A stretch of 64,000 bases of DNA from Terriglobia bacterium (GTDB lineage: Bacteria; Acidobacteriota; Terriglobia; Bryobacterales; Bryobacteraceae): the NCBI GenBank assembly GCA_021325235.1, contig JAJPHN010000057.1:62001-126000 (forward strand), written 5' to 3'. Under the pieces are notes generated by a model. That model made no database searches, was not told the DNA's origin, and saw nothing but the letters and a program-made list of their open reading frames with translations. The translations under genes and the position numbers were made by a program. Positions within the stretch are counted from its first letter, which is position 1. Each line of letters begins with the position of its first letter. Of the stretch, positions 5,386-9,052 are shown one piece after another.

Positions 5386-5946
5386 TTACTTGATCTGGAT
5401 GAGTGGATCGGGTTTCGGACTGGTCGCGCTGAAGCCGGAGTGATCACGGAGGCGCACGGCGGTGTGTTTGATGAGAAGAACGGCGATTGCCAGAAGCACT
5501 GCCATGGCCCATGCTTCTGTTCCAGAAGTGTGTCGCAGAAGCTCGATGGCAGCAATACAGGCGGCGAGTGTAAACAGAATGATGGAAAAGCCGATTTGAA
5601 ATTTGACGGAGCCGGAGACGAGCATGGGGTCCATGGAAACCGGAATTTCGCGGCCTCGATCGGAGTGCGTACAGCGGGATTTAATCGCGCAGTTATTGCA
5701 GGCGTGGGCGGGTGCGCGATAACGAACGATTCGCTGTTCGTAATTCACTTCGGTGCGGACCAGCGCCATGCCGGTTGGGCACTCCCAGACATCCCGGTTG
5801 GGATCGAAGCGGAAGCCGCCGGTATGGAAACGCTCGGCGCGATTTTGCGTGTGGCGCGCCATGCATTCGAGCGCGAAGGCGATCAGCATCAGCAGGATGA
5901 TATATGCGCCCGCGAGCAGCGTTTCCAGACGGAAAGCAGCGATCAT
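5386..5946 (-). CDS. Membrane protein with a transposase-type cysteine ribbon, coupled to NO reductase
   Basis: This 186-residue protein has an N-terminal membrane helix (about residues 8-29), then a soluble cysteine-rich segment (50-105) and two further hydrophobic segments (about 116-136 and 146-160). The soluble segment reads WECPTG, then Y-R-A-P-A-H-ACNNC, then SRCT and GREI. That is the spacing of the cysteine-rich ribbon in IS1182/DDE_Tnp_1_6-type transposases, yet no DDE catalytic domain and no inverted repeats are present. The ATG overlaps the NO reductase stop (ATGA), so the two are translationally coupled. The function is unknown. A metal-binding or redox accessory role for NO reductase is an inference from linkage alone. 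Confidence 0.82.
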   Translation of the reverse strand: MIAAFRLETLLAGAYIILLMLIAFALECMARHTQNRAERFHTGGFRFDPNRDVWECPTGMALVRTEVNYEQRIVRYRAPAHACNNCAIKSRCTHSDRGREIPVSMDPMLVSGSVKFQIGFSIILFTLAACIAAIELLRHTSGTEAWAMAVLLAIAVLLIKHTAVRLRDHSGFSATSPKPDPLIQIK

Positions 5947-8267
5947 CGGCCGGCGGTGGATTCGGTGACTTCCGCGAACAAAATCGTCTTCGGTTCTTGG
6001 AGCGTGGTTTCTCGGCGAACGCTGTGGCGCACCGCGAGCCAGCAGAGATACAGCAAAGGCAGCACGCCGCCAAAAATGAAGACTGCATCGCCGGGGAAGC
6101 GCAGCCATTCGATGAGCGCGTTGACAGGATTGCCGATGAACTTGAGCGAGCGCGCTTCGAAGTAGCCGTGGTTGACTGACTCGTAGAGTTGCAGGATGCC
6201 GAGGGGGAAAAGAGTCGCAAAGACCATCCAGGCGAGGCCGCCATTGAGGCACCAGAAGCTGATCTTGGCGGCGCGTTCGGACCAGCGCTCTTCGGGCACG
6301 ATGTAGCGGATGCAGAACAGCGCGAGACCGACGGCGAGCATTCCGTACACGCCCATCATGGCGGCGTGGCCGTGATTCGTGGTGAGGGCGGTTCCGATCT
6401 CGTAATAAGAGACAACCGGGAGATTGATCAGGAAGCCGAACACCCCGGCGCCGAGGAAATTCCAGAAACCCACTGAGACGAGAAACATGACGGCCCAGTA
6501 GTGAGGAAAGGCAGTGCGCGAACGGGCCTCCTGGCGCGAGCCGAGTTGCAGAAAGCTCCATGCCTCCACGGTGAGGAAGGTGAGCGGAATCACTTCGGCG
6601 GCGGAGAAAAATGCACCGAGGGCCATGTGCTCCGCGGGAGTGCCGGAGAAGTAGACGTGATGCATGGTTCCGATGACGCCGCCTGCCGAGTAGAGCACGA
6701 TATCGAGATAAACGACAGTAAGCGCGACGCGCTCGGCGACGACTCCGAGCAGGACGAAAATGCAGGCCACCATGATGGTCGTGAACAACTCGAGAAAATC
6801 TTCGACCCAGAGGTGAACGACCCAAAAGCGCCAGAAATCGGTGGTGGTGAAATGCGCTTCGGGACGCGCCAGCAGGCCGACGCCGTAGAAGGCGGGGATC
6901 GACAAAGCCGAGAAGAAGAACAGCCAGGGCATGTTGCCCTTGTGCTCGTTACGAAGACGCCCGCGCAAGCCGAGATACAGCATGAGCACCCAGAAGCAGA
7001 GGCCGATGGTGAGCAGGATTTGCCAGAAGCGGCCGAGATCGAGATATTCAAAGCCCTGGTTGCCGAACCAGCTCCAGCCTCTTTGAATCCAGCCGTGGAT
7101 ACCGGCGAACTCGCCAAAGAGGCTACCAAAAACGACCAGCGTCAGAGCACCGAGCAGCGCCACGGCGAGCCATTTCTGAATCTTTGGTTCGCGGCCGCTG
7201 AGCATGGGAGTGAGGAAGATGCCGGCGGCAAGATACGACGTCGCAACCCAGAAGATAGCGAGCTGGAGATGCCAGGTGCGGGCAATATTGAACGGAAGAA
7301 GACGAGCGAGGTCGATGCCGAAGAAATTTGAGATATCGGCGCGATAGTGCTGCGAGGCGCCGCCGACCAGAGTCTGTATCAGAAACAGCAGGACCATGAC
7401 GAAGAAGAACCAGGCAGTGACGCGCTGCGCAGGAGTGAGCAGCACGGTATTCGGGGCGCGGAAGGTGAGTGTGTTCTGTTCGCGGCCGTGCCAGCCGAGC
7501 ACATTCCAGCGGCCGAACACGGTGAAGAGTGCACCGATGCCGCCCAGCAAAGCGATGAGCGAAAGCACGCTCCAGACGACGTTATCGGCCGTGACGGTGT
7601 TGTGCACGAGCGGCTCGGGAGGCCAGTTGTTGGTGTAGGAGTAATCGTGTCCGGGCCGGAGCGCGGCGGCAGCCCAGGCGGACCAGGCGAAGAAGGCGGT
7701 GAGATCGCTCGCCTGCCGCGGGTCCGAAATGGCCGCAGGTCGCAGGCCGAAACGGGTGCTGGGCTCAGCAAAAAATTTCGAGTAATATGCGATGAGATCG
7801 CGGTGCGCTGCGGCTTGCTGGGTGGTGAAGGCGAGCGTGTCGGAGGCGGCGTCGTAGCGATTGGTTTTGAAGATCTGAACGGTGAGATCCTTGGCGCGCC
7901 CGGCATCCTTGGCGGCGAGGGAAGAAAGAACAGCGGTGGCCGAGCGCCGCAGATAGTCGGCCGTGTAATCGGGTCCGAGATAAGCGCCGTGACCGAACAC
8001 GGAGCCATACTCCATGAGGCCGTTTTTCAAAAAGACCTGCTGACCGTTGAGGATGTTTTGACGGGTGAACAGGACGGAGTTATCCGGGGCGACGACTCGG
8101 CCGGGTATGGGGGCTTCGCCGGTGTACGTGCGATAGGCGAGCAGACCTATGACAAAGAAGCCAAAGATAACGACGAGCGCGACGGCTTGCAGCCAGCCTT
8201 TGGAGACGAGTAGTTCCCGCCTGGCAGGCTGGCCGAAGGCGGGTTGATTGTTCTGGTTGGAGGGCAT
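5943..8267 (-). CDS. norZ: Quinol-dependent nitric oxide reductase (qNor), single-subunit
   Basis: This 774-residue membrane enzyme reduces NO to N2O using quinol. The N-terminus has the fused NorC-like extension of qNor: one membrane helix, then a periplasmic part with FLKNGLMEYGSVFGHGAYLGPD but no CxxCH haem motif. The NorB-like core follows with many membrane helices and conserved blocks such as HLQLAIFW, WVVHLWVED, TMHHVYFSGTP and TTNHGHAAMMG, which supply the haem and iron ligands. I prefer the ATG at 8267, preceded by AAGAG, over an in-frame ATG at 8303 that has no ribosome-binding site. It is divergent from a Crp/Fnr regulator with a shared operator. Confidence 0.96.
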   Translation of the reverse strand: MPSNQNNQPAFGQPARRELLVSKGWLQAVALVVIFGFFVIGLLAYRTYTGEAPIPGRVVAPDNSVLFTRQNILNGQQVFLKNGLMEYGSVFGHGAYLGPDYTADYLRRSATAVLSSLAAKDAGRAKDLTVQIFKTNRYDAASDTLAFTTQQAAAHRDLIAYYSKFFAEPSTRFGLRPAAISDPRQASDLTAFFAWSAWAAAALRPGHDYSYTNNWPPEPLVHNTVTADNVVWSVLSLIALLGGIGALFTVFGRWNVLGWHGREQNTLTFRAPNTVLLTPAQRVTAWFFFVMVLLFLIQTLVGGASQHYRADISNFFGIDLARLLPFNIARTWHLQLAIFWVATSYLAAGIFLTPMLSGREPKIQKWLAVALLGALTLVVFGSLFGEFAGIHGWIQRGWSWFGNQGFEYLDLGRFWQILLTIGLCFWVLMLYLGLRGRLRNEHKGNMPWLFFFSALSIPAFYGVGLLARPEAHFTTTDFWRFWVVHLWVEDFLELFTTIMVACIFVLLGVVAERVALTVVYLDIVLYSAGGVIGTMHHVYFSGTPAEHMALGAFFSAAEVIPLTFLTVEAWSFLQLGSRQEARSRTAFPHYWAVMFLVSVGFWNFLGAGVFGFLINLPVVSYYEIGTALTTNHGHAAMMGVYGMLAVGLALFCIRYIVPEERWSERAAKISFWCLNGGLAWMVFATLFPLGILQLYESVNHGYFEARSLKFIGNPVNALIEWLRFPGDAVFIFGGVLPLLYLCWLAVRHSVRRETTLQEPKTILFAEVTESTAGR

Positions 8268-8313
8268 GAGTCGACTCTTGTGAAGTAGTCTCCGAGACAG
8301 CATTGTGGGAGGC

Positions 8314-8329: not shown

Positions 8330-8344
8330 TAAACTGTGATTTAC

Positions 8345-9052
8345 ATGAACGCGGAGAAATTGCCGGTGGCGATTGCAACGCTCAAGGGATCGCCGCTCTT
8401 TTCGGAGCTGGATGCGGAAGAGCTGTCGGCGCTGGCCAATCGCGCGGTCGTGCGGCGCTTTGCGGGAGGCGAGATGTTGTTCTCCGAGGGCGATCCGTCG
8501 GAGGGCCTGTACATTGTGGCGGCGGGGCGCGTGCGGATCTTCAAACGCGCAGGCAGCGGACGGGAGCAGGTTCTGCTTGAAGAAGGCCCTGCCAATTCGG
8601 TGGCGGAACTGCCGGTGCTGGATGGCGGAGTGTATCCGGCGTCATGCTCGGCTGTCGCGGAGACGCAGGTGTTGTTTATCTCGCGCAGCGATTTTCGGGC
8701 GTGCTGCCTGGAAAATCCCGAGCTCGCGCTGAAAGTGCTGCAGGTGGTGGGCACCCGGTTGCGACGCCTGGTTGAAATCATTCACGAGCTCTCGTTTGCA
8801 ACCTTACGGCAACGGCTGATCTCGTGGATTCTGCGCGAGGCGGATCAGCGCGGGCGGGCGCTGCCGGAGGGCATTGTGCTCGATTTGGGGATGACGCATC
8901 AGGAACTGGCGGCGCATGTGGGAACAGTGCGCGAGCTGGTCTCGCGTAATCTGGCGCGGCTCGAAGCGGAAAATCTGCTGCGATCGGCGGGGCGCGAGGT
9001 TGTGATTCTGAATCGCAGGGCACTGGAGACGGAACTCGGAGTGATGGTGTAA
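8345..9052 (+). CDS. Crp/Fnr-family transcriptional regulator, probable NO or nitrosative-stress sensor
   Basis: This 235-residue protein has an N-terminal cyclic-nucleotide-binding-like beta-roll (about residues 5-120: GEMLFSEGDPSEGLYIVAAGRVRIFK), a long dimer helix, and a C-terminal winged helix with a HTH_Crp motif (TH-QELAAHVGTVRELVSRNLARLE). The cysteine cluster of Fnr that holds 4Fe-4S is absent; only isolated cysteines occur. An oxygen-sensing Fnr is therefore unlikely, and a DNR-like haem/NO sensor fits the divergent NO reductase. I chose the ATG at 8345; a GTG at 8336 in the same frame is possible. The palindrome just upstream suggests autoregulation. Confidence 0.92.
   Translation: MNAEKLPVAIATLKGSPLFSELDAEELSALANRAVVRRFAGGEMLFSEGDPSEGLYIVAAGRVRIFKRAGSGREQVLLEEGPANSVAELPVLDGGVYPASCSAVAETQVLFISRSDFRACCLENPELALKVLQVVGTRLRRLVEIIHELSFATLRQRLISWILREADQRGRALPEGIVLDLGMTHQELAAHVGTVRELVSRNLARLEAENLLRSAGREVVILNRRALETELGVMV

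Follow-up and report, generated by a model that had tools for sequence, protein, structure and literature searches.

In the 64,000-nucleotide stretch of DNA analysed here (the window), the gene of the NO reductase qNor is followed by the gene of a small membrane protein that carries the cysteine ribbon of an IS1182-type transposase. We name this protein NRIB, and we find that, as far as sequence comparison can show, it is co-inherited with qNor and kept under purifying selection. It is very likely a dedicated and so far undescribed partner of one branch of the NO reductases. The NRIB gene occupies positions 5386-5946 on the minus strand, as an open frame of 186 amino acids plus stop that is supported by homologues and by a family alignment. 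The fuller reading, in which one Acidobacteriota qNor clade has in NRIB an accessory membrane protein of its own, with a ribbon of transposase ancestry that binds a metal in the cytoplasm and with a role as subunit or in assembly, is the one that we favour, with guarded confidence; complex formation, metal and function have not been shown.

The ribbon covers residues 43-106 (positions 5629-5820, minus strand), and the view taken in the preliminary description, that this segment is of the IS1182 type, that it sits between membrane helices and that the DDE catalytic core is missing, held up on all counts. NRIB matches the IS1182 transposase family NF033551 with E=9.3e-10 over residues 34-103, corresponding to positions 347-415 of the 488 in the profile. 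The search with DDE_Tnp_1_6 (PF13751), which had been put forward as a check, yields E=6.3e-4 and 20.5 bits, below the cut-off of 25.1; likewise, the score against NF033551 is 38 of the 270 bits required, so that its curated cut-off is not met. Scanned singly at E<=0.01, 22 of 23 NRIB members match NF033551 and all 23 match PF13751. Comparison of a profile of the 23 NRIBs with one of 15 Acidobacteriota transposases (seven redundant or fragmentary sequences of 22 having been left out) aligned 76 columns with a probability of 98.2% and E=3.3e-14. This comparison scored 102.9; none of 50 column shuffles exceeded 21.9 (or a probability of 1.4%), and the reversed profile gave 16.5. A real score so far above the shuffled and reversed ones indicates that the resemblance is homology and not an accident of motif.

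What the two proteins have in common is a co-linear ribbon of 76 columns with the elements F-x-Y/F, D-x-W/Y-x-C-P-x-G, Y, C-x2-C-x5-C and G-R. Its four cysteines in NRIB are Cys56, within the CPxG element (codon at 5779-5781), Cys83, the first of the CX2CX5C trio (5698-5700), Cys86 (5689-5691) and Cys92 (5671-5673), all on the minus strand. Spaced as CX26CX2CX5C, they are invariant in 22/22 sequences, a count that omits one member (L020) without the Cys56 region; the trio alone is present in 23/23 members and, if near-copies and pieces are counted, in 18 of the 22 transposase rows. Outside the ribbon the likeness ends. The match stops about where the second membrane helix of NRIB begins, and as the transposase profile is matched in the ribbon part only, NRIB has no DDE core. 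Complete-looking IS1182 transposases are 442-561 amino acids long, whereas NRIB has 186, and membrane helices flank its ribbon on both sides. IS1182 elements are mobile and occur at multiple sites, whereas NRIB is present in a single copy in its own genome, in a fixed position behind qNor. A search of that genome with PF13751 gave no match at E<=0.001, and the same search misses NRIB too. NRIB as a whole or nicked transposase is ruled out, since the DDE core is absent and the curated scores are not met.

Which of the two came first? In an unrooted tree of the ribbons, those of NRIB and those of the transposases fall on opposite sides of one branch (99/100); the bootstrap of this tree had not settled, and besides the truncated L020 two sequences without the motif (L035 and L042) were omitted. 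Because the tree is unrooted, a direction from transposase to membrane protein is inferred not from the tree but from distribution, IS1182 being widespread and NRIB narrow. As a separate observation, one member of the NRIB family alignment matches the family UPF0179 at E=0.0014 and the NRIB of the window matches it at 0.15; the cysteine module may have a further relative in UPF0179.

The hydrophobic stretches of NRIB place one predicted helix before the ribbon and two after it. Helix 1 covers residues 7-29 (5860-5928, minus strand) by hydropathy and lies within a longer helix, 7-42, in the AlphaFold2 model; helix 2 (residues 115-138, 5533-5604) and helix 3 (residues 144-164, 5455-5517), on the same strand, are predicted by both the model and hydropathy. 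The model, built from nine family sequences, has a mean pLDDT of 80.7 and a pTM of 0.65, and in it the strands and short helices of residues 46-104 form a small domain, followed by helices at 107-138 and 142-172. The ribbon alone (residues 40-108) was modelled at a pLDDT of 88.4. Neither the whole model nor the ribbon alone has a counterpart among solved structures at E<=0.001 in Foldseek searches. A second look at the ribbon fold gave a best Z of 4.4, for a lipocalin-like protein, and 2.7 for NrdR; the lipocalin- and avidin-like rows, with Z at most 4.4, were taken as chance. By sequence, a single NRIB has no relative of solved structure, and the NRIB profile has only chance-level ones (best E=0.31). 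The charge of the 22 members is unevenly distributed: the 14 residues after helix 1 hold on average 2.95 K+R and 0.86 D+E and the tail 2.36 and 1.68, the N-terminus is nearly without positive charge (0.27), and the short loop joining helices 2 and 3 holds 1.18 and 1.09. The concentration of positive charge behind the first helix and in the tail, and its near absence from the N-terminus, suggest a ribbon pointed to the cytoplasm, a topology that rests on charge alone. Histidines common in the family (HSH and FHRG) raised the idea of a heme protein, which was dropped as the NRIB of the window has neither motif and another member (L014) has no FHRG.

The strongest evidence for a partnership with qNor comes from gene order. 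It had been claimed that NRIB overlaps the qNor gene by ATGA and is a coupled partner and not a stray IS fragment; the ATG of NRIB at 5946-5944 indeed overlaps the qNor stop TGA at 5945-5943 on the minus strand (overlap 5943-5946), and an open frame of 479 amino acids with a TTG start is the NRIB frame extended upstream through the qNor gene. Across 22/22 loci the junction ranges from an overlap of 7 bases to a gap of 15 bases, and in 14 of them the genes overlap, when the NRIB start chosen by script is that nearest to the family start. The neighbourhood survey that had been called for covered 299 genomes of the class, 70 of which match the qNor of the window at E<=1e-100. Identity to the qNor of the window is 66-100% at 21 qNor loci, spread over 19 genomes, and at most 58% in the remaining matches; NRIB lies directly downstream of qNor in 19/19 of these close loci that could be tested. 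In the other two, the contig ends 45 bases past qNor (G459:C230) or qNor itself reaches the contig end (G509); in this latter genome NRIB is found on another contig (C322), behind a 59-residue 3' end of qNor. None of 12 more distant qNor loci examined (L071-L082) has NRIB, and a search at E<=1e-12 found NRIB in 0/51 genomes with only more distant qNors. Altogether 20 of the 299 genomes were positive in that search, namely the 19 with the 66-100% identical qNors and one more, G634. The whole proposal was to fail if homologues occurred mainly as decayed transposases at unrelated sites or if the cysteines were not conserved. Neither is the case: full-length homologues, wherever their upstream DNA is available, stand directly behind the qNor of one clade (a truncated qNor in one genome), and the four cysteines, as given above, do not vary.

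Surveys of other kinds lead to the same picture. A first search of 60 related genomes gave seven with a match, five of them NRIBs and two transposases. In a sample of 396 genomes of the phylum 17 had a match; three of these, the genome of the window included, hold NRIB, and the matches in the remaining 14 are transposases or, judged by eye, pieces of transposases. Scanning of a contig collection with one narrow pattern returned at least 9 loci, all of them NRIBs or cut NRIBs; this count is a lower bound, as a single narrow pattern was used, and a scan of the collection with a single NRIB protein as query found nothing. The titled records of the pattern scan are all metagenome bins, and for two of them, L018 (labelled Bacillota) and L022 (labelled Rubrobacteraceae), misbinning is a possibility. 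Surveys of genomes were confined to one phylum, and beyond it only this one-pattern scan was made. No relative of NRIB was seen in viral contigs, and while 36 plasmid records matched, none covers 80% of the NRIB query; the 20 listed among them cover 26-39% of it and are transposases where annotated. Every NRIB locus with upstream DNA lies directly behind qNor or, in G634, behind a qNor remnant.

The history of the two genes is in accordance with their linkage. In a tree of qNor, the presence of NRIB requires a single change, the NRIB-positive qNors forming one side of one branch (SH-aLRT 99). The tree has 39 rows, 35 of them different (25 with NRIB, 12 without and two unlabelled); it was built quickly, carries a long-branch warning (L077 among others) and includes four identical pairs whose rows come from two collections. 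Distances between NRIBs correlate with those between their qNors (Mantel r=0.84, 20 loci, L019 and L085 left out), and 0/5000 permutations gave a correlation as high. The dN/dS of NRIB is 0.07-0.30 in eight of ten pairs and could not be computed in two; since synonymous sites are near saturation, these values are rough.

Could NRIB nevertheless be a functionless remnant of a transposase that hitchhikes behind qNor? Its ribbon is homologous to part of a transposase, and in G634 it has outlived a truncated qNor, which would not be expected of a functional linkage. Against this stand a single origin followed by long retention, invariant cysteines, low dN/dS and tight junctions, and no full-length homologue turned up at a site without a qNor gene or what remains of one; we hardly credit the idea, and linkage, conservation and selection together rule out a stray IS fragment. 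The locus in G634 (L112, 7679-8653) bears on the dedicated partner as well. NRIB is intact there, with all four cysteines, while the sole qNor match of the genome consists of about the last 126 residues, directly before NRIB. Either qNor was lost recently or NRIB may persist or act without a full qNor; the case counts against a strict reading of NRIB as a subunit.

The qNor gene of the window (5943-8267, minus strand; the start at 8267 is proposed, the longest frame starting at 8303) encodes an enzyme that looks like an ordinary qNor (NorZ) in its domains and active-site positions. It contains the COX1 core PF00115 (4e-53) and the cytochrome-c-like N-terminal domain of NorB, PF22085 (1.5e-52), and aligns with solved qNORs over most of its length, with E down to 1e-159. 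The residues at the AxqNOR positions His486, Glu490, Glu494, His537, His538, Glu559 and Asn600 are identical in 18/18 loci of the NRIB-linked clade; the conserved histidines and glutamates include those that bind iron. Two other positions deviate: that of AxqNOR Arg255 is Gly in all 18 NRIB-linked qNors, and that of Glu572 is Ser in 18/18 of them, Gly in 4/4 qNors of the next clade and Asp or Glu in 8/8 more distant ones. Glu572 is described as a residue of a proposed proton channel (PMC6713497). This substitution, together with a site of redox-capable cysteines that would lie at the cytoplasmic face, is what speaks for a role of NRIB in supplying qNor with electrons or protons from the cytoplasm, either in place of quinol or in addition to it. 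The next clade, however, also lacks the Glu yet has no NRIB, on which grounds we rejected the loss of Glu572 as the reason for the partner, and no donor gene is kept beside the pair in the open reading frame lists of nine loci, compared by eye, with only eight neighbours scanned for families. We regard such a delivery role as very improbable.

The C-terminal tail of qNor is a candidate, by inference only, for the site at which NRIB docks. In the window it holds the element ILFAEV (5967-5984, minus strand), and the pattern [LA]Fx[ED][ILV] is present in 17/17 complete qNors of the NRIB-linked clade, tails being counted by eye here and below. Eight more distant qNors are without the motif, and in the next clade four (L071-L074) keep LF only and have no NRIB; thus the tail marks the NRIB clade only in part, and we did not retain it as an exclusive mark.

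How, then, might NRIB act? Most likely it serves qNor as a small membrane subunit or as a partner in assembly, a role that is inferred in the absence of physical, metal or activity data, as is any part in NO reduction. The ancestor of the NRIB-linked clade would have gained the gene once, when a transposase ribbon was inserted between membrane helices. The ribbon would face the cytoplasm, hold a single metal centre, either zinc or a cluster, and lie against the cytoplasmic side of qNor, possibly at the clade-typical C-terminal tail, and NRIB would act there as a small subunit for structure or assembly. This last step leans on an analogy: COX5B/Cox4 of mitochondrial cytochrome c oxidase is a zinc-binding small subunit on a heme-copper enzyme, although its origin is, as far as we know, other than that of NRIB. 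NRIB may instead be a biogenesis factor that helps qNor insert, load heme or non-heme iron, or dimerise and then leaves, never becoming a lasting subunit. The linkage of the two genes fits that account equally, and accessory genes are commonly found behind the genes of respiratory enzymes. On the other hand, distant qNors of the same class manage without NRIB, which was not found in 51/51 of their genomes, and the NRIB sequence bears no sign of a chaperone or a metal donor; a transient helper is unlikely but remains a serious contender.

A question remains, which metal, if any, does the ribbon hold? The four-cysteine module is probably metal-binding, in the absence of metal data. The CX2CX5C spacing may also occur in AddB, Cas4 and Dna2. 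It binds [4Fe-4S] in RseC, in a membrane-anchored cytoplasmic domain (PMC11729352), and NUBP1 binds [4Fe-4S] through CX13CX2CX5C (PMC10108433, PMC8007109); zinc is thus not to be assumed for NRIB. One and the same four-cysteine arrangement holds an iron-sulfur cluster in Cas4 and AddB and zinc in a crystal of DUF3799 (PMC3466216). A bolder and rather unlikely possibility is that the ribbon is a [4Fe-4S] site, a module in common with IS1182 transposases, and that it now forms the cytoplasmic half, responsive to NO and redox state, of an NO reductase with two components; were this true, IS1182 transposases would by homology be iron-sulfur enzymes too. A related account makes NRIB a sensor or regulator that would modulate qNor or a partner through a [4Fe-4S] cluster sensitive to NO or oxygen, on the model of RseC in the SoxR reducing system. 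For it speak the CX2CX5C trio, kept throughout the family, and the cluster that the same spacing binds in RseC and NUBP1. Yet spacing alone cannot fix the metal, as the Cas4 and DUF3799 case illustrates, and no link of sequence or fold was found between NRIB and RseC or NUBP1, so that we take a sensory function to be quite unlikely.

RseC/RnfF is a known system that invites comparison with the partner protein proposed here, each being a membrane protein with a CX2CX5C domain beside a membrane redox system, the domain being cytoplasmic in RseC (PMC11729352). In RseC the cysteine domain is N-terminal and there are two helices, whereas in NRIB the ribbon follows the first of three predicted helices; a family of the RseC type is absent among the eight families matched by any of the 23 NRIB members at E<=0.01. 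qNORs are described as single-subunit enzymes (PMC6713497), unlike the NRIB-linked clade with its extra co-encoded membrane protein. norZ has been reported in Acidobacteria, among them strains that lack dissimilatory reductases for nitrate or nitrite (PMC5900883). Among the literature matches listed, for which titles and abstract openings of mostly freely accessible papers were compared, no paper describes NRIB.

qNORs produce the greenhouse gas N2O. If the partnership is real, Acidobacteriota possess a two-component qNor, a clean system for asking what a second protein adds, and NRIB is a remarkable instance, in bacteria, of a transposase module retained in a respiratory protein. The spacing of its cysteines raises the question of zinc or iron-sulfur for NRIB and IS1182 transposases alike, and genes of this type are at risk of being annotated as transposase fragments.

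Beyond the pair itself, the neighbours vary across nine qNor-NRIB loci compared by eye. A regulator of the Crp/Fnr type (8336-9052, plus strand; PF00027, PF13545) is divergent from qNor-NRIB in the window, and such regulators are near the pair in the window and in L018; that it controls the operon is possible, by inference. The sole FNR-like site near it, at 8336-8349, lies at the start of the regulator itself and has 2 mismatches. FNR-type sites with at most 2 mismatches number 22 in the window against 15.4 expected, and as 10 of 100 shuffles had as many, this is no more than chance. The divergent segment 8336-9385 contains, besides the regulator, a protein with a weak cupin match below the cut-off. 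Genes of the NnrS family occur near the pair in two other loci (L014, 7051-7416; L015, 5528-6940). On the contig labelled Rubrobacteraceae a cut NRIB (L022, 2-400) is followed by cydDC-like transporter genes and the start of a cydA-like gene, the names being given by eye. Finally, G459:C150 carries a second, near-identical C-terminal piece of NRIB about 2 kb behind the first (L084, 4726-4875), which is a duplication or an effect of assembly.
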